Part shown: positions 17,691 to 27,279 of the stretch, piece by piece | How the letters are laid out: each line of letters begins with the position of its first letter | Numbering within the stretch: position 1 is the first letter of the stretch | Origin: Blautia pseudococcoides | Lineage (GTDB): Bacteria; Bacillota; Clostridia; Lachnospirales; Lachnospiraceae | Reading direction: 5' to 3' | Length of the DNA: 64,000 nt | NCBI RefSeq assembly: GCF_001689125.2 | Contig: NZ_CP015405.2 | Coordinates: forward strand, 1,207,001 to 1,271,000 | The notes under the pieces: generated by a model | Told to the model about the DNA's origin: nothing | What the model saw: only the letters and a program-made list of their open reading frames with translations | The model's database searches: none | Position numbers and translations under genes: made by a program

Positions 17691-18962
17691 ATGAAGTGTG
17701 AAAGATGCGGCCATGAACTGGACAACGACGATCTGTTCTGCTCAAAGTGCGGAAAAGCGGTGTTCGAGGAATACATGGATGAGGACGACATCTGGGAGTT
17801 TTATAAAAGCGATGAAGAACTGAAGGATATAAAAAAGGAAACCGCCGCAGCAAAAGAAAGCGATCCTAAAGAACAGAGAGCTGAAAATGCGGCAGCGGAT
17901 CCAAAAGAAGAAAAAGTAGGGGCAGAACCTCCGAAACCTGAAAGGACAGACCATACAGAAACGGATGGGGAAGGCATTGTTCTCGGGGATACAGTGACGG
18001 AGGAGTTGAGTCAGGATACGTTAGGGGATACGGATGCAGAAGCGGCGGAGCGTGAGAGGGAGACGCCTCCAACATTTCTGCAGAAGGAGGAGAACCCCAG
18101 GGAAGAATCCTCCTACAAGCCGAAAAAAGAAAAGCGGCAGGGAGAACCGGAGAAGAGAAATCCGGTCTGGCTCATATCCGGATGTATTCTAATTGTCTGC
18201 CTTCTCATTGGAATTCTGTGGGGTGTACACGCCATGCAGCAGATGGATGAGGAAAAAAAGGCATACTATGCCAAGGCAGAACAGGAAGACAAAACAGCCG
18301 GTGCCAAGGGGCAGGATTCTGAAAATACGCAGGGGTCAGCCGATAAGGAAGCGGATGCCAAAAAAGAGACGGAAACCGGAGAGAAGCACAACAGCGGCGC
18401 AGAGGCTGAAAAAGAAGAAAAAGACAAAGCGGCGGAGAAAAAGGAAGAAAAATCCAAAGAAGAAAAAAAGGAAGAAAAGAAACAGGAATATTTTAAACCG
18501 GTGGATGCGGACAGCGTAGACTTTTCCAAATTCCAAAAAATCTCCATTGCTTCCACGGACCAGAATTCCCAGCAGTCCTCCGATAAATATGATTACAGCG
18601 CGGCCAGCGCTGCGGATGGGGATACTGCTTCCTCCTGGCAGGAGGGGGAAGACGGACTGGGGGAGGGTACCGGTATCCGTCTGGATTTTGACAAGGCTCA
18701 CAAAGTGCGCTACATGGTACTTTACCTGGGGAACTGGAGAAGTGAGGACATGTGGAAGGCAAATGCCAGACCGGCGTCCCTGACGATCAGTGTGGGAGAT
18801 TCCCAGAAGAAGGATGTGGAGTTTTCCAATGAAAAGAAGGCGTTCTGCCTTTCCTTTGATGAACCGGTGGAGGCCTCTTATGTATCCCTTTATATTAAAA
18901 GCGGATTTGAGGGAGACAGATGGAATGACAACTGTATTTCAGAAATTGAACTATATGAATAA
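17691..18962 (+). CDS. Zinc-ribbon membrane protein with C-terminal discoidin-like domain
   Basis: The 423-residue protein starts with a zinc ribbon (C3, C6, C17, C20), followed by a long acidic Glu/Lys-rich linker, one membrane segment at about 158-182 (WLISGCILIVCLLIGILWG), an extreme Lys/Glu stretch at about 230-270, and a C-terminal beta-rich domain from about 285 (SDKYDYSAASAADGDTAS..., GIRLDFDKAHKVRYMVLYLGN) that resembles the NADase-type glycan-binding (discoidin-fold) domain. The likely topology puts the zinc ribbon in the cytoplasm and the sugar-binding-like domain outside. It follows cbiC but nothing links it to cobalamin. Function unknown. Confidence 0.8.
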   Translation: MKCERCGHELDNDDLFCSKCGKAVFEEYMDEDDIWEFYKSDEELKDIKKETAAAKESDPKEQRAENAAADPKEEKVGAEPPKPERTDHTETDGEGIVLGDTVTEELSQDTLGDTDAEAAERERETPPTFLQKEENPREESSYKPKKEKRQGEPEKRNPVWLISGCILIVCLLIGILWGVHAMQQMDEEKKAYYAKAEQEDKTAGAKGQDSENTQGSADKEADAKKETETGEKHNSGAEAEKEEKDKAAEKKEEKSKEEKKEEKKQEYFKPVDADSVDFSKFQKISIASTDQNSQQSSDKYDYSAASAADGDTASSWQEGEDGLGEGTGIRLDFDKAHKVRYMVLYLGNWRSEDMWKANARPASLTISVGDSQKKDVEFSNEKKAFCLSFDEPVEASYVSLYIKSGFEGDRWNDNCISEIELYE

Positions 18963-19059: not shown

Positions 19060-19107
19060 TTACAGCCAGACCAGTGAATACATAGACCTGTATAGCAGTG
19101 ATTCTTA
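19060..19107 (-). repeat. Degenerate family-A repeat fragment
   Basis: On the minus strand the segment reads ACTGCTATACAGGTCTATG and then TATTCACTGGTCTGGCTGTA, matching the left third of family A (AGACAGGTCTGCGCATTCACTGCGCTG). It abuts the stop codon of the cbiO-cbiK gene. Confidence 0.5.
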
Positions 19108-20769
19108 TTTGTCAACTGCACGGATGTGGTCAATAAAGAGACGGCGTATGCCCTTGTATTCTCCGAGACCTTTTAACACAGCCTTCACTTCATATCCTTC
19201 GTCCTTAAACTGGCTGTACCAGGATTCCGGGTCATCCCCCGCCATATCATTTTTGGCGTGGTCACCGGCCACGATCATAAAGGGCGCCAGCACCACTTCC
19301 TTCGGCTGGTAGGCTTTCAGCATTTTTTTCAGACTCTCCATAGAAGGGTAGGCCTCCACAGTGCCCAAAAAGAAGTTGGGATATCCTTTATCTTTGAAGG
19401 TGTAATCCAGGGCAGCATAGATGGAGTTGGCAAAATGGGTCGTGCCGTGCCCCATGAATACCAGTGCCTGTTCCTTTGTAATATGAGAGAATTCGTCCGC
19501 AATAGCAGTAATAACTTTATGGCTGTCATCCTCCGTGGTAAGAAGCGGGTCCCCGAAAGAAATCGAATGGAAGGAATCCCGGTAGGTAAGGGCATCCTCC
19601 TTCATCAGGTCATTTTCAATGCCATTGATCACATGAGTGGGCTGTACCAGTACATCTGTAATGCCGTCTGACATCATCTGCTCCATGGCTTCCTTTACAG
19701 TGGGAATGATCAGGTTATCCCGGTTTTTAAGCTTTCGGATGATCATTTTGCTGGTCCATGCCCGATAGACAGGATACTCCGGGAAAGCCTGTCTCATGGA
19801 ATCTTCGATGGCATCAATGGTAACCTTTCTGGTGTCATCATGGCTGGTGCCGAAGCTGACTGCCAGGATCGCTTTCTTTGTCTTCATGTTCACTGGTGAT
19901 ATTCCTCCGTAATGTGTAGTATTGATATTGACATCTGCTATGTATTTCTCTAAGGTCTGCAGATTTTTGGGAACAGGCAGCGCAGGCTTTAAAATACCTT
20001 TCATACACAGGCTGTCAAACAGTTCCAGCACGGCAGGCGCTTCCAGGTTCGTCTGGGCCAGCACTGCTTTGTTGCTGAACACATCAGCGGGGGTGCCGTG
20101 CATGAGAACTTTTCCCTCGTGAAACAGCATAATTTCGTCCGCCCACTCATAGGCATAATTTACATCATGGGTTGCCATGAGGACTGTGATCCCGGCCTCT
20201 GTCAGACGGTTTACGATCTGGTTCACCATGGTGGTATGCTTGGGGTCCAGGGCGGCAGCCGGTTCATCTAAAATAATAATGTCCGGATGCATGACAAGAA
20301 TGTCAGCTATGGACACCTGTTTTTTCTGGCCTCCGCTTAAAGAGTGGGTGGGCTTATGGCGGAAAGGTGTGATTTCCAGATGCTCGATGACCTCCTCCAC
20401 CTCTTTTTTTGCCTCCTCCTCTGATACACCCAGATTGAGGATGCCAAAAGAAATCTCCTGGTATACACTGGCTGAAAAAAGCTGGTTGTCAGGGTCCTGA
20501 AACACGATCCCTATTTTGCTCCGCAGTTTTAAGAGGCCTTTCTTGTCATAGGTGAACGGTTCGCCGTTAAAATACAGGGCGCCTGAGGAAGGGCGGTGTA
20601 TGCCGTTGCAGCACAGAAAGAAAGTGGATTTTCCTGAGCCGTTGGAGCCCATGAAAGCAACCTTCTGTCCCCGTTTGATTTCCAGGCTGAGACCATTTAA
20701 CGAATGGGAATTCTCGTCGTCATATGAAAAAAATAAATTCTCTGCTTTTAATATGATGTCATTGTTCAT
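19105..20769 (-). CDS. Fused cobalt-importer ATPase (CbiO) and sirohydrochlorin cobaltochelatase (CbiK)
   Basis: A single 554-residue frame joins two enzymes. Residues 1-250 are CbiO, the energy-coupling-factor ATPase: Walker A GSNGSGKST (41-49), Q91, signature LSGGQKKQ (144-151), Walker B IIILDEP (164-170), H201. After a linker of about 45 residues, residues 295-554 are CbiK: KKAILAVSFGTSHDD, H441 in FMGHGTTH, E472 in GTVEAYPS, H504 in AGDHAKNDMAG, matching the metal and catalytic residues of anaerobic cobaltochelatase. It overlaps cbiQ by ATGA. An internal GGAGGA with GTG/ATG at the CbiK boundary could also give a separate chelatase. Import and insertion of cobalt would thus be physically linked. 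Confidence 0.93.
   Translation of the reverse strand: MNNDIILKAENLFFSYDDENSHSLNGLSLEIKRGQKVAFMGSNGSGKSTFFLCCNGIHRPSSGALYFNGEPFTYDKKGLLKLRSKIGIVFQDPDNQLFSASVYQEISFGILNLGVSEEEAKKEVEEVIEHLEITPFRHKPTHSLSGGQKKQVSIADILVMHPDIIILDEPAAALDPKHTTMVNQIVNRLTEAGITVLMATHDVNYAYEWADEIMLFHEGKVLMHGTPADVFSNKAVLAQTNLEAPAVLELFDSLCMKGILKPALPVPKNLQTLEKYIADVNINTTHYGGISPVNMKTKKAILAVSFGTSHDDTRKVTIDAIEDSMRQAFPEYPVYRAWTSKMIIRKLKNRDNLIIPTVKEAMEQMMSDGITDVLVQPTHVINGIENDLMKEDALTYRDSFHSISFGDPLLTTEDDSHKVITAIADEFSHITKEQALVFMGHGTTHFANSIYAALDYTFKDKGYPNFFLGTVEAYPSMESLKKMLKAYQPKEVVLAPFMIVAGDHAKNDMAGDDPESWYSQFKDEGYEVKAVLKGLGEYKGIRRLFIDHIRAVDK
19885..19908 (-). promoter_or_regulatory. Internal ribosome-binding site and start codons before the CbiK domain
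   Basis: On the minus strand GGAGGA (19908-19903) is followed nine bases later by an in-frame GTG (19893-19891, residue 293) and then by ATG (19887-19885, residue 295). The following residues MKTKKAILAVSFGTS are the usual N-terminus of stand-alone CbiK. Whether it is used is untested. Confidence 0.5.
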
Positions 20770-21542
20770 GCGAAGAACCTCCTCCAGATAGTTATGGAAA
20801 ATAAAATGATTTCAAATAAAACGATCCACACGATCACTTTTTTCTTGGGAGGATAGGTTTCATTCAAAACATGGATGGTGCCGTCATAGCAGCGTGCCTC
20901 CATGGCGCTGTAGAGGGCATTGGAACGCTTAACCGCCCGGATCATCAGGACAGATCCCAGGGCACCGAAGGACTTTAAGCTTGTCTTGTAATTTCTATTT
21001 CCCAGGCGGCTGTTCTGTGACGTGGAAATATAATAGGCAGTATCCAGCAGCACAAAAATAAAACGGTAAATCAGCAGCATCAGCTCAATCATCAGTTTGG
21101 GGCAGTGCAGCTTTCCCAGTACATTCAGAATGTCCGGTATAGGGGTTGTCATGGACAGAAAATACAGGCAGGAGACTGCGGACAGGGCTGTCAGAATCAA
21201 CTGCAGGGCATAAAGCAGCGCGTCCACGCTCCCTGTGAGATACCAACTGCCCATAGAAACAGCAAATAGATCCAGGGGCTCGTGTTTCAAATTCAGAACA
21301 ATGGCAATGGTGCTCAGAATCAGGAAAGCCAGCGGCACAGTCATAAAATGTATATAGCGGGAAAAAGGGATTCCCCCCTTATAAACGGTGAGAATCCCTG
21401 TGACTGCTAAAACCATGCATGCGACCACGATGGAACGACTCATTACACAGAAAAGAAGTGTAATCATCGCGAACGCAAACTTTTCACCGGCATTTTCATA
21501 TCTAAGCTTAGAATTGTAACAAAGCTTATCAATGGTTATCAT
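20766..21542 (-). CDS. cbiQ: Cobalt ECF transporter transmembrane protein CbiQ
   Basis: CbiQ is the T component that couples the ATPase to the substrate-binding CbiMN. The 258-residue membrane protein has several hydrophobic segments and the coupling motif region SNALYSAMEARCYDG, which contains the conserved Ala-Arg pair contacting CbiO. It starts at 21542 behind AGGAGT and ends with an ATGA overlap with the cbiO-cbiK gene. It is third in the importer operon. Confidence 0.93.
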   Translation of the reverse strand: MITIDKLCYNSKLRYENAGEKFAFAMITLLFCVMSRSIVVACMVLAVTGILTVYKGGIPFSRYIHFMTVPLAFLILSTIAIVLNLKHEPLDLFAVSMGSWYLTGSVDALLYALQLILTALSAVSCLYFLSMTTPIPDILNVLGKLHCPKLMIELMLLIYRFIFVLLDTAYYISTSQNSRLGNRNYKTSLKSFGALGSVLMIRAVKRSNALYSAMEARCYDGTIHVLNETYPPKKKVIVWIVLFEIILFSITIWRRFFA

Positions 21543-21571: not shown

Positions 21572-21871
21572 TCATTGGCCTTTTCCCAGCTTCTTTCTTT
21601 CTACAAAGCGTCCCATAAAGAAGGCCAGGATGCCAACTCCGATGGAAGACTGTACACAGAATAAAAGACTTTCCACTTCGCCGGGAAGCTCGCGGCCAAG
21701 TATTTTTTCAAGGATCGGTTCTGCGATGGGCTGAAAACCGGAGTCCACTTCCGCCACCACCTGGCTGCCGGCATCGTCAGAGCCGCCGAATTCCGCGTCC
21801 TTTAAAGCAAAGAGCGGTATGAACGCAATTAGAATGATCACAACTAATAATCCGATTACTGTTTTTTTCAT
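21572..21871 (-). CDS. cbiN: Cobalt transport protein CbiN
   Basis: CbiN is the small accessory subunit needed with CbiM for cobalt uptake. The 99-residue protein has an N-terminal membrane segment (VIGLLVVIILIAFIPLFAL), an extracytoplasmic middle containing AEFGGSDDAGSQVV and FQPIAEPI, and a second membrane segment near the C-terminus (QSSIGVGILAFFMGRFV). It begins one base after the cbiM stop, behind AGGAGG. Confidence 0.93.
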   Translation of the reverse strand: MKKTVIGLLVVIILIAFIPLFALKDAEFGGSDDAGSQVVAEVDSGFQPIAEPILEKILGRELPGEVESLLFCVQSSIGVGILAFFMGRFVERKKLGKGQ

Positions 21872-21872
21872 A

Positions 21873-22619
21873 TTACTTTGCCTCCTTTAAAAAACCGATG
21901 GTACGGAGTTCCGGTTTCGCATAGGTCTCAAGACCCATGATGATAAGAACTGTGATGACGCCTTCGATAATTGCCAGAGGTAACTGTGTGGGTGCGAACA
22001 CCAGCAGGAATTTTCCCATAGCGCCCATGATGGTAGTGTCTGCATGGTGAGCCAGTGCCATCTGTACGGCAGTTACACAGTATGTAAATAAATCGCCCAG
22101 GGTTGCTGCAAGGAAAACAGAAACATATCGGTTCACCTTGCATTTTTTACAGATAAAGAAAATTCCGTAAGATACAAAAGGTCCTGCGATCGCCATAGAA
22201 AAAGTATTGGCACCCAGGGTGGTAAGTCCGCCGTGGGCCAGCAGGATAGCCTGGAAGAGGAGCACAATGATTCCCAGAATAGAAACTGCGCTGGGGCCGA
22301 AAAGGATGGCGCCAAGCCCGGTTCCTGTCATATGGGAACAGCTTCCTGTCACAGACGGGATCTTAAGGGATGAGATCACGAATACAAAGGCTCCTGACAT
22401 AGCCAGCAGGGTGATCAGGTTTCTGTGTTCATTCAGGGTTTTCTTGATGGACATAAAACCTGCGATCAAAAATGGGACGCAGATCACACCCCATGCGATG
22501 CAGAACCCTCCGGGAAGATAACCTTCCATGATGTGCATGGCACTTACATTCGGCACAATACCAAAGGTCAGTGCGAACATGCTTGCCAATACAATGATTC
22601 TTTTCTGTTGCTTACTCAT
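21873..22619 (-). CDS. cbiM: Cobalt ECF transporter substrate-binding protein CbiM
   Basis: CbiM binds cobalt ions. The 248-residue protein begins MSKQQKRIIVLASMFALTF, a cleavable signal, and continues SAMHIMEGYLPGG; after cleavage the Met-His N-terminus coordinates the metal. Multiple membrane segments follow. The frame extends to 22703, but that part is leader RNA; ATG 22619 has an excellent AAGGAGGAAAAG upstream. It is the first gene of the leftward operon cbiM-cbiN-cbiQ-cbiO::cbiK and is preceded by a B12 riboswitch and terminator. Confidence 0.95.
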   Translation of the reverse strand: MSKQQKRIIVLASMFALTFGIVPNVSAMHIMEGYLPGGFCIAWGVICVPFLIAGFMSIKKTLNEHRNLITLLAMSGAFVFVISSLKIPSVTGSCSHMTGTGLGAILFGPSAVSILGIIVLLFQAILLAHGGLTTLGANTFSMAIAGPFVSYGIFFICKKCKVNRYVSVFLAATLGDLFTYCVTAVQMALAHHADTTIMGAMGKFLLVFAPTQLPLAIIEGVITVLIIMGLETYAKPELRTIGFLKEAK

Positions 22620-22667
22620 TTTGTCTTTTCCTCCTTCTGATTGAGTAATATAATGCCCAAATGGGTA

Positions 22668-22699
22668 TAAAAAAACCTGGCGGTAAAAACACCGACAGG
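22668..22699 (-). terminator. Riboswitch-linked terminator upstream of cbiM
   Basis: On the minus strand CCTGTCGGT (22699-22691) pairs with ACCGCCAGG (22684-22676) around a T-rich loop, with one mismatch, and TTTTTTTA follows. It lies between the B12 element and cbiM, so cobalamin binding is expected to switch off cobalt import. Confidence 0.8.
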
Positions 22700-22794
22700 C
22701 CATCAGAAGAACAAATGCGGACAGCAGACCTTATTTTAATAAGCGCCTATACCGCCTGTTCTTACACAAGGCCATCGTTCGTAACCATTGTGTA

Positions 22795-22930
22795 AATCGC
22801 TTGTGACAGGCAGGTCTTCTGACTCGGGCCTCATCACCACATTTTGCCTTCCCAGTTTCCCAGTGACATCATAAAATGCAGCTCTTCCCTCACAGCGGCG
22901 CGACCGTGTGAGCTTTTAACTCAACTTTCC
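22795..22930 (-). promoter_or_regulatory. Cobalamin riboswitch upstream of cbiM
   Basis: The minus strand shows the classical B12 element: CACACGGTCGCGCCGCTGTGAGGG near 22915-22890 (shortened here), then later GAGTCAGAAGACCTGCC near 22830-22812, which is the B12 box. It lies in a leader of about 350 bases between a consensus promoter and the cbiM terminator. Confidence 0.9.
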
Positions 22931-22977
22931 TATTATTCCGACGTAGCGGACACCTGTACACACTCAATTCTGTGATT

Positions 22978-24381: not shown

Positions 24382-24847
24382 GAAAAAACGGTTTCCCCTG
24401 TACACAGACCTGACTGAGAAAAAAGCTGTGGTCATAGGCGGAGGAAACATAGCTTCCAGAAGGATCAAAAGCCTTCTTGGATTTGTGGGGGAACTGATAG
24501 TGATCGCCCCCGATGTTCAGCCGGAAATCCAGGAGCTTGCAAAAAGCGGTGAGCTGGTCTGGAAACAGAAAAAATACGAACGGGAAGATTTATATGATGC
24601 GGATCTGGCATTGGCGGCCACAGATGACAGGAAGGTAAATGAAGATATCTACAGTGCCTGTAAATGTCTGGGCATACTGGTGAACACAGCCAGTGACCAA
24701 AACAAATGTGATTTTCATTTTCCTGGAATCATAAACCACGATGGTGTGGTCATTGGGTTCAACGCAGCGGGAAAAGATCATAAGAAGACAAGGCAGATGC
24801 GGGAAAAGGTGGAAGAATTTTTAAAGACGCCGGGAGGTAGGAAATGA
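24371..24847 (+). CDS. Precorrin-2 dehydrogenase (SirC-like)
   Basis: The 158-residue protein has the N-terminal Rossmann motif of the CysG/Met8/SirC family, KKAVVIGGGNIASRRIKSLL, then LALAATDDRKVNEDIYSAC and KCDFHFPGIINHDGVVIGF. It oxidises precorrin-2 to sirohydrochlorin with NAD. It lacks the C-terminal ferrochelatase part of Met8, fitting a pathway in which cobalt is inserted by the CbiK domain encoded at 19.1-19.9 kb. ATG 24371 overlaps hemA; the stop overlaps the next gene by four bases. Confidence 0.88.
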   Translation: MKTEKKRFPLYTDLTEKKAVVIGGGNIASRRIKSLLGFVGELIVIAPDVQPEIQELAKSGELVWKQKKYEREDLYDADLALAATDDRKVNEDIYSACKCLGILVNTASDQNKCDFHFPGIINHDGVVIGFNAAGKDHKKTRQMREKVEEFLKTPGGRK

Positions 24848-27279
24848 GCAGCAAAACAGTAGTGATCGGGAGCCGGGAGAGCCGGCTTGCCGTAATACAG
24901 AGTGAGATGGTGAGAGACTACATAGAGAAGAACAATGAAGGACTGAAAGCTGAGCTTCTCACTATGAAGACAACAGGGGATATTATTTTGGACAGAACCC
25001 TTGACAAAGTGGGGGGGAAGGGCCTGTTTGTAAAAGAGCTGGACCGGGCGCTTCTGGACGGAAGAAGCCAGCTTTCCGTACACAGTCTGAAGGATATGCC
25101 CATGGAAGTCCCGGAGGAACTGCCTCTTCTGGCTTTCTCAAAAAGGGAGGACCCAAGGGACGCGCTGGTGCTTCCCGAGGGAGCGACGGAACTGGATAAG
25201 ACAAAGCCCATCGGCTGTTCCAGTCTCAGGCGTACCCTGCAGCTTGGTGAATTGTTTCCTGAGATGGAGTGTAAAAGTGTCAGGGGGAATGTACAGACAA
25301 GGCTTGGAAAGCTTGACAGAGGAGAATACAGTGCTCTGGTTCTGGCTGCGGCAGGGCTTAAAAGGCTGGGGCTGACCCACAGGATATCCAGATATTTTGA
25401 GCCGGAGGAGATGCTGCCCGCGGCAGGACAGGGGATTCTGACTGTACAGGGCAGAAAAGGGAAAGACTATTCTTACCTGGATGGCTACGGGGATGCGGAC
25501 AGTACCTGTGCGGCCCTGGCGGAGCGCTCTTTTGTAAGAGTTCTGGACGGCGGATGTTCCTCACCGGTTGCGGCCCATGCGGTGGTGGACCGGGACAGAA
25601 TCGTGCTTACCGGCCTCTATTATGAGGAGGAGACCGGTGCATATAAAAAGGGCAGTCTGGAAGGGACCAGGGCTGAGGCAGAGGAACTGGGCGTTCGTCT
25701 TGCAAGAAAACTGAGAGAGGAGTGCAGAGCGGAATCCATGACAGCAGGTGGACAGGAGACAGACCGTGCATACGGTAAGGGAAAGGTCTGGCTTGTGGGC
25801 GCAGGCCCGGGAGATATCGGACTTTTTACCCTGAAAGGTATGGAAACTTTGAAAAATGCCCAGGTGGTTGTGTATGACAGCCTTGTGGGACAGGGCGTCC
25901 TTTCCCAGATTCCGGCTGGTGTGCGCCTGATCAATGTGGGGAAACGTGCGTCTCACCATATTATGCCTCAGGAGCAGATCAACCAGGTACTTGTGGATGA
26001 GGCAAAAAAGGGATACCGGGTAGTCCGGTTAAAGGGCGGAGACCCATTTCTCTTCGGAAGAGGCGGAGAGGAGCTGGAGCTTCTCACAAAAGAGGGAATC
26101 CCCTATGAAGTGGTGCCCGGAGTCACCTCCTCTTTGGCCGTTCCTGCATATAACGGTATTCCGGTGACACACAGGGATTTCTGTTCCTCCCTGCATATTA
26201 TCACAGGACATAAAAAGCAGGGGGAGGCCTATGACATTGATTTTGAAGCACTGGTGCGCACAAAGGGAACACTGGTGTTCCTCATGGGTGTCACGGCACT
26301 TGCTGATATCTGCAATTCCCTGCTGCGGGCAGGTATGCCGGGTGAGATGCCGGCCGCCATACTGCAGAAAGGAACTACGGCAGGGCAGAAGCGGATCGTG
26401 GCTACCGTCTCCACTTTGGAGGAGGAGGTAAAACGCCAGGGGATCGAGACGCCGGCTATCATTGTGGTTGGCCAGGTTTGTTCTCTTGCTGATACCTTTG
26501 GATGGTATGAGAAGCTGCCCCTGGCAGGATATAAAGTGCTGGTCACAAGGCCCAGAGAGACGGTTTCCACCATGTCTCAAAAGCTGCGCCTGATGGGAGC
26601 GGAAGTACTGGAGCTTCCCGCTATCAAAACAGCACCGCTTAAAGACCAGAGCGCGCTTTTCAGCGCATTCGGACAGCTTGACAGCTATGACTGGCTGGCA
26701 TTTACAAGCCCTATCGGTGTGAATGTATTTTTTGAGGAGATGAAAAAGGCAGGGACAGACGTGAGAAAACTGGGCGGAGCAAAGATCGCTGCCATTGGAA
26801 AAGGTACGAAAAAGGCACTGGAAGAGAGAGGCCTGTTTGTGGATCTGATGCCTGAGGTGTTTGACGGGGAATCCCTGGGAAGAGTGCTGTGTGAAGTCTG
26901 CAGCGGAAATGAAAAGATTCTTCTTCCGAGAGCAAAGATCGGAGGAAAAGAGATCATCCAGGAGCTGGAGAAAAAGCCAGGGCTTTTGATCTGTGATGTG
27001 CCGACCTATGATACCTTTTATGAAAAACAGGAAATGATCAATGAGAAAAAGGCTTTTGAGAGCGGAGAGATCAACTGTGCTGTCTTTACAAGTGCGTCTA
27101 CCGTAAAAGGATTTGCGGAGGCAGTAGAAGGCCTTGATTATACAAAAGTGACGGCTGCCTGCATTGGAAAGCAGACGAAAGCTGCGGCGGACGCATACGG
27201 AATGAAGACATTTATGGCAAAACAGGCGACCATTGACAGTGTGGTGGATTTGGTTGTAAACTTGAAAAACAACAGGTAA
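24844..27279 (+). CDS. Fused HemC-CobA-HemD: hydroxymethylbilane synthase, uroporphyrinogen-III methyltransferase and uroporphyrinogen-III synthase
   Basis: The 811-residue chain contains three enzymes. Residues 1-300 are HemC, starting [17 protein letters not shown], with the dipyrromethane-binding cysteine C238 in [13 protein letters not shown]. Residues about 314-555 are CobA (SUMT), starting [18 protein letters not shown], with [17 protein letters not shown]. Residues about 560-811 are HemD, starting [18 protein letters not shown], with [14 protein letters not shown] near the end. The order follows the pathway except that HemD acts before CobA. CobA-HemD fusions are common; a HemC at the front is less so. 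The TAA stop lies within a family-A repeat end. Confidence 0.94.

Follow-up and report, generated by a model that had tools for sequence, protein, structure and literature searches.

The Fused cbiO-cbiK Locus

The gene studied here lies in a 64,000-nucleotide stretch of the Blautia pseudococcoides genome (contig NZ_CP015405.2), to which we refer as the window. It is the last gene of an operon with the order cbiM-cbiN-cbiQ-cbiOK, all on the minus strand, which is headed by a cobalamin riboswitch at 22792..22972 (RF00174, 93.1 bits against a gathering score of 31.5); the same riboswitch family precedes all 12 fused and all 4 unfused loci tested. We assign cbiM to 21873..22703 from matches to PF01891 and TIGR00123, both above their cut-offs, in a mechanically called frame whose true start is probably further in, as the family match begins at residue 56. 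The cbiN gene (21572..21871) scores above the cut-off of PF02553 and below those of both NCBIfam cbiN models, and cbiQ (20766..21542; TIGR02454 above cut-off) shares 4 bases with the start of the fused gene. The fused gene itself occupies 19105..20769 as a single ATG-started frame of 554 codons plus stop with no internal stop, and the plus strand of this interval, read in the same frame, contains many stops. The first-pass annotation of this DNA had the coordinates right and left the strand, which is minus, unstated. The product would be a protein of ∼62 kDa.

The first 274 residues (19948..20769) form the CbiO part. Pfam ABC_tran matches residues 24-171 with 109.7 bits against a cut-off of 25, NCBIfam TIGR01166 (cbiO) scores 231.6 bits, above its cut-off of 211.8, and the nearest solved structures are the CbiO entry 3gfo and 5x3x, the latter matching over residues 6-274. 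The nucleotide-binding motifs of a CbiO are intact and invariant in an alignment of 15 fused proteins, namely, the Walker A core, Q91 of the Q-loop, LSGGQ, D168-E169 of Walker B, and H201 of the H-loop. Residues 275-297 (19879..19947) fall outside the matches to 5x3x and 1qgo and make up a linker of ∼23 residues. The remainder, residues 298-554 (19108..19878), is a complete CbiK domain: PF06180 matches residues 299-552 with 285.4 bits against a cut-off of 26.2, covering model positions 1-260 of 262, and Salmonella CbiK (1qgo) aligns over residues 298-550. The NCBIfam CbiK equivalog NF047852 also matches (residues 298-551) at 259.8 bits, below its cut-off of 400, which is a naming threshold and not a biological definition; among the best 25 of 191 NCBIfam families, the remaining ones score below their own cut-offs. 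E89, H145, and H207 of the Salmonella enzyme align with E385, H441, and H504 of the fused protein, all three of which are invariant in the 15 fused proteins. We take E89 to be the catalytic glutamate. The two histidines are named as the catalytic ones of Salmonella CbiK in PMC7689651.

With these matches, motifs, and catalytic residues intact, the first-pass reading of one uninterrupted 554-codon frame that links a complete CbiO with a complete CbiK holds. Judged from its motifs and from cbiM, cbiN, and cbiQ directly upstream, the first half is the CbiO of a cobalt energy-coupling-factor importer, for which ATP-driven cobalt uptake is predicted, so that the fused protein would be both a cobalt-importer ATPase and a sirohydrochlorin cobaltochelatase. 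An AlphaFold model built from 16 close relatives was set aside because it was poor (mean pLDDT 55.5) and the placement of the domains could not be read from it; a wider alignment for structure modeling was dropped because its CbiK-only rows looked misaligned.

The genome contains the corrinoid-synthesis genes CbiD and CbiC, and CbiD, a B12-synthesis gene, is present in all 17 genomes tested, 14 of which carry the fusion. The plus strand next to the operon encodes further proteins of B12 and tetrapyrrole synthesis, namely, CbiC, glutamyl-tRNA reductase, and a HemC-methylase-HemD protein. The last is a second fusion in the same neighborhood, an 811-codon frame at 24844-27279 (+) that joins porphobilinogen deaminase (HemC), a tetrapyrrole methylase, and uroporphyrinogen-III synthase (HemD). 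Also inside the B12 gene cluster, the protein encoded at 17691-18962 (+) carries an N-terminal zinc ribbon and, at its C-terminal side, a discoidin-like NADase-type glycan-binding domain, with a charged stretch of low complexity between them. A search of the genome for a second CbiK found none, leaving the fused CbiK as its sole CbiK. A separate CbiX as the real chelatase was considered and rejected: in four genomes (G000, G258, G271, and G021), the sole CbiX match is the fused gene. When the fused gene was used as query, no other ATPase found in the genome exceeded 38% identity to it, and the fused protein is therefore most likely the ATPase that serves the importer. A plasmid search with the fused gene returned no match.

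Distribution and Origin of the Fusion

The fused frame is present in 20 of 20 genomes of the genus searched, in one of which (L041) it is cut by a contig edge. In a sample of the family, a stop-free fusion was found in 16 of 397 genomes and 14 of 334 genera (E 1e-120, domains checked), which is a lower bound. The best 120 relatives listed share 78-99% identity over 88-100% of the query, and some of them are drawn from many contigs (P0002 has 42 members on 92 contigs); the named relatives among the matches listed are Blautia producta, B. parvula, and Blautia sp., at ∼94% identity. No fusion was seen outside the family in a class sample (391 genomes, E 1e-75) or a phylum sample (398 genomes, 1e-90), both of which also include family members and were scored at three candidates per genome, so that absence is not proven. 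The first-pass annotation held CbiO and CbiK to be normally separate, which is true of most CbiK genes seen among the best matches listed, an incomplete list, and not of the source genus.

This distribution also bears on whether the frame is a sequencing error, for instance one that removed a stop between residues 250 and 295, a chance frame, or a gene in decay. One doubtful case elsewhere speaks for such an origin: in L239, a fused cbiO-cbiK gene of a second clade, the P-loop of CbiO is out of frame in the assembly, and the gene is either decayed or misassembled. The fused frame in every genome of the genus and in at least 14 genera, together with catalytic residues that are invariant in 15 proteins, refutes this explanation for the present gene, and we give it next to no weight. 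In another locus (L052), a single open frame spans CbiQ, CbiO, and CbiK; relative to L057, an additional base precedes the cbiO start near a contig edge, and this triple frame may be an assembly error.

Several relatives keep the two genes apart in the order cbiM-N-Q-O-K, with cbiO adjoining cbiK (e.g., L021/L224, L134, and L135). In L021/L224, which is 72% identical, a single in-frame TAA lies between cbiO and cbiK, and L248, from another family, likewise has one in-frame TAA there. Such neighbors, parted by a single in-frame stop, make stop loss a likely route to the fused frame, and we infer that the fusion arose by in-frame loss of the stop between two adjacent genes. A single clade of all fused genes was rejected in the CbiK tree (p = 0.0039 when L239 is left out, and much lower when it is included) and in the CbiO tree (p = 0.0017 without L239). 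The CbiK tree was computed from 123 rows scoring at least 200 bits and the CbiO tree from 57 rows, with identical sequences used once. Both are quick trees with many weak forks, and 49 of the 120 inner branches of the CbiK tree are open. As the fused genes do not form one clade in them, there was either repeated fusion or fusion with later splitting, two histories that quick trees cannot separate. The unfused CbiO sequences of L141 (starred support) and L242 (support 84) fall among the fused sequences of the genus in the CbiO tree. The position of the unfused L021, L141, and L242 among or next to fused genes suggests that the fusion is dispensable.

CbiK has also been joined to other partners in other genera of the family, namely, to a tetrapyrrole methylase at the N-terminal (L085) or C-terminal (L093) side and to porphobilinogen deaminase (L092). 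Five further CbiK-like proteins (L088, L095, L096, L097, and L098) lie in longer frames of 493-725 codons with no CbiO match, and the DNA upstream of L088 gives, on translation and by eye, a lipoprotein-like start. The heme-binding FetB (PDB 9b86) is a CbiK relative too, and these five proteins may bind heme or other tetrapyrroles at the cell surface.

A Candidate Internal Start Site in the Linker

The coding strand of the linker reads TAC GGA GGA ATA TCA CCA GTG AAC ATG. It contains a GGAGG ribosome-binding site in the codons of Gly288-Gly289 (19904..19908, minus strand), a probable internal start GTG (Val293, 19891..19893) that follows it by 10 bases in frame, and an ATG (Met295, 19885-19887) downstream of the GTG. 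The single-protein picture of the first-pass annotation was correct as to the fusion and missed this conserved ribosome-binding site and start codon. Chance sites of this kind are common, so that a lone site means nothing and only the pattern of conservation counts. An in-frame GGAGG with an NTG at a spacing of 5-11 occurs 26 times in 53 frames of the window, with 3 cases in the fused gene, and a spacing of 7-10 leaves 5 cases, the linker site among them. Across 34 fused genes, 17 GGAGG-NTG sites lie outside the junction, one of which, near residue 470 and at a spacing of 11, is found in 7 genes. The spacing of 10 is on the long side; among 21 window genes with a GGAGG, it is used in 2, and the commonest spacing, 8, is used in 7.

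For the codon counts, we used 34 of the 35 fused genes, leaving out L239 with its odd start region and its P-loop out of frame. Two genes (L234 and L041, the latter cut at a contig edge) were counted without a recognized first start, and L058 is a fragment. The GGAGG is intact in 29 of the 34 genes, a raw count that overstates independence because the genes are related (the 29 form 15 groups at 80% DNA identity), and in 27 of these 29, an in-frame ATG, GTG, or TTG follows at a spacing of exactly 10. With L086, which has a TTG at spacing 7, a GGAGG and an in-frame start are present in 28 of the 34. The residue at the start position varies among Met, Val, and Leu while the codon stays NTG. All 6 leucines there are encoded by TTG, which accounts for 5.8% of leucine codons in the fused genes, all 13 valines are encoded by GTG (28% of valine codons), and the 31 genes with a glycine at residue 288 all encode it by GGA (37.5% of glycine codons).

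We then counted base changes on a tree built without the junction, from which no gene was dropped for missing the site. Over all 34 genes, the start-codon column has 11 first-base against 4 third-base changes, where the column means are 2.9 and 9.4. No other of the 553 codon columns reaches this excess of 7, the next largest being 5. Scored by the majority share of bases, column 298 of the linker ties with it. In the 29 genes with a GGAGG, the counts are 9 and 2, and the next largest excess among 552 columns is 4. We did not use a count on the 27 genes selected for their NTG (7 first-base and 0 third-base changes), because that selection itself fixes the third base and makes the argument circular there. 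In the linker, both the ribosome-binding site and the start codon are thus conserved beyond what the protein needs, in the pattern expected from selection for a start site, which would not be expected from selection on the protein sequence alone.

The simplest alternative is a plain two-domain fusion that makes the 62-kDa protein alone, with the GGAGG-NTG of the linker as a functionless relic of the former cbiK gene. In a relic, changes should accumulate fastest at third codon positions; the start codon instead shows the largest first-over-third excess of all 553 columns, the glycines at residue 288 are GGA without exception, and every leucine at the start position is the rare TTG. On the other side, there is no stop between the domains, and the full site is missing in 6 of the 34 genes, including three whose genomes have no other CbiK or CbiX. 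We regard the relic explanation as unlikely, although it keeps some real weight. The site also sits between two folded domains, where the GGAGG might slow the ribosome and so aid folding, with the NTG as an incidental feature. Ribosome slowing would need the GGAGG only, and leaves unexplained why an NTG whose first base varies follows at a spacing of exactly 10 in 27 of 29 genes, so that we consider it very improbable.

The reading that we prefer to these two is that the old cbiK ribosome-binding site and start survive in the linker in most lineages seen, the source lineage included, and that ribosomes probably also start there, which would give a free CbiK of ∼29 kDa. The gene would then probably make both the fusion and the predicted free form. 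The genes that lack the full site set a limit to how far this applies. In four of the six (L079, L080, L082, and L234), the GGAGG is lost, and the YGG residues are lost with it, which indicates that YGG is not needed by the protein. Of the other two, L225 has a weaker GAAGG with an ATG, and L223 has an intact GGAGG with an ATT at spacing 10. The genomes of L079, L080, and L082 (G271, G021, and G258) contain CbiD and neither another CbiK nor a separate CbiX, so the fusion must be the early chelatase there, if B12 is made. Those of L234 (G708) and L223 (G788) have a second CbiK in its own frame, of 263 and 266 codons, respectively. The fused protein is thus very likely functional, and free CbiK would not always be needed; it appears to be usual and not obligatory.

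Cobalt Transfer and the Two Forms of CbiK

As there is no stop in the frame, any CbiO made for the importer carries CbiK unless it is cut afterward, and it is a fair inference that CbiK is tethered to the importer. The first-pass annotation went further and proposed that the importer hands its cobalt to the tethered chelatase, straight into sirohydrochlorin, and that free cobalt in the cell stays low. The order of the operon and the tethering itself are in keeping with such channeling, as are the fused frame in all 20 genomes of the genus and the one cobalamin riboswitch that importer and chelatase have in common. We estimated the gain from proximity by treating the importer as a steady-state point source with an assumed diffusion constant and assumed rates. 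At 1 ion per second, the extra cobalt 5 nm away comes to ∼0.04 nM, or 0.08 nM if the membrane acts as a wall, and at 10 ions per second, it comes to 0.4-0.8 nM. The sole value with which we compare these figures is the cobalt KD of Salmonella RcnR, given as 0.5 nM in PMC7689651. An excess of 0.04-0.08 nM means that proximity alone helps little unless transport is fast or hand-over is direct, and this part of the first-pass account is not supported. Furthermore, the conserved internal start would supply untethered CbiK, which is not what obligate channeling needs, and the fused genes are not one clade, with separate forms recurring. Direct transfer of cobalt from importer to chelatase is possible; as the explanation of the locus, we find channeling distinctly unlikely.

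The explanation that we favor instead combines the steps argued above. The last gene of the riboswitch-controlled cobalt-import operon would encode a protein in which the CbiO half drives the CbiMNQ importer and the CbiK half, attached through the linker, inserts cobalt into sirohydrochlorin; with stop loss as its origin and the internal start in use, one message would supply an importer-bound and a free pool of chelatase. We hold this explanation as a whole with moderate confidence, the activity of both halves, the use of the internal start, the place of the tethered half at the importer, and the stop-loss route all being predicted from sequence. A more specific version, in which the importer-bound form takes the entering cobalt and gives it a privileged path into B12 while the selected internal start provides the free form, is tentative, and we think it rather unlikely as it stands.

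Relation to Known Systems

Each half of the protein belongs to a known family, and public databases already contain the fused form. The few named relatives among the matches listed carry general or one-sided names, and those names that state a function cover one half only ("EcfA3", "cobalt/nickel transport system ATP-binding protein", or "sirohydrochlorin cobaltochelatase"). We found no description of a cbiO-cbiK fusion or of its internal start in an open-access library that lacks most subscription papers, and nothing decisive there on internal starts. Compared with the CbiO of the CbiMNQO importer (3gfo, 5x3x), the fused protein has the same ATPase domain, C-terminal region (within 6-274), motifs, and cbiM, cbiN, and cbiQ neighbors, and differs in bearing a complete CbiK at its C-terminus. 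Salmonella CbiK, a class II sirohydrochlorin cobaltochelatase (1qgo/2xwp), is matched over its full length with equivalents of E89, H145, and H207; here, however, the enzyme is the C-terminal half of a transporter ATPase, with a free form predicted from the internal start. The relatives with adjacent genes share the order cbiM-N-Q-O-K (L224, L134, and L135) and, in L224 and L248, have one in-frame stop at the junction, but unlike the fusion, they make two separate proteins. The CbiK-methylase (L085 and L093) and CbiK-porphobilinogen deaminase (L092) proteins likewise join CbiK to a protein of the tetrapyrrole pathway; their partners are pathway enzymes, whereas here the partner is a transporter subunit. 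A long and a short product from one bacterial gene have a parallel in AerR (PMC6199135), which has more than one isoform. Judging by the title of that paper, these are two forms of one regulator, whereas the short form here would be a whole separate enzyme.

The insertion of cobalt into B12 is treated in PMC7689651 as a model case for the open question of how metals are steered to the right enzyme. A natural importer-chelatase fusion, together with its unfused sisters and with lineages that lack the internal start, offers a ready comparison of tethered and free chelatase. The locus may further illustrate how the start signal of a gene can outlast its fusion to another, with the unfused product still being made.
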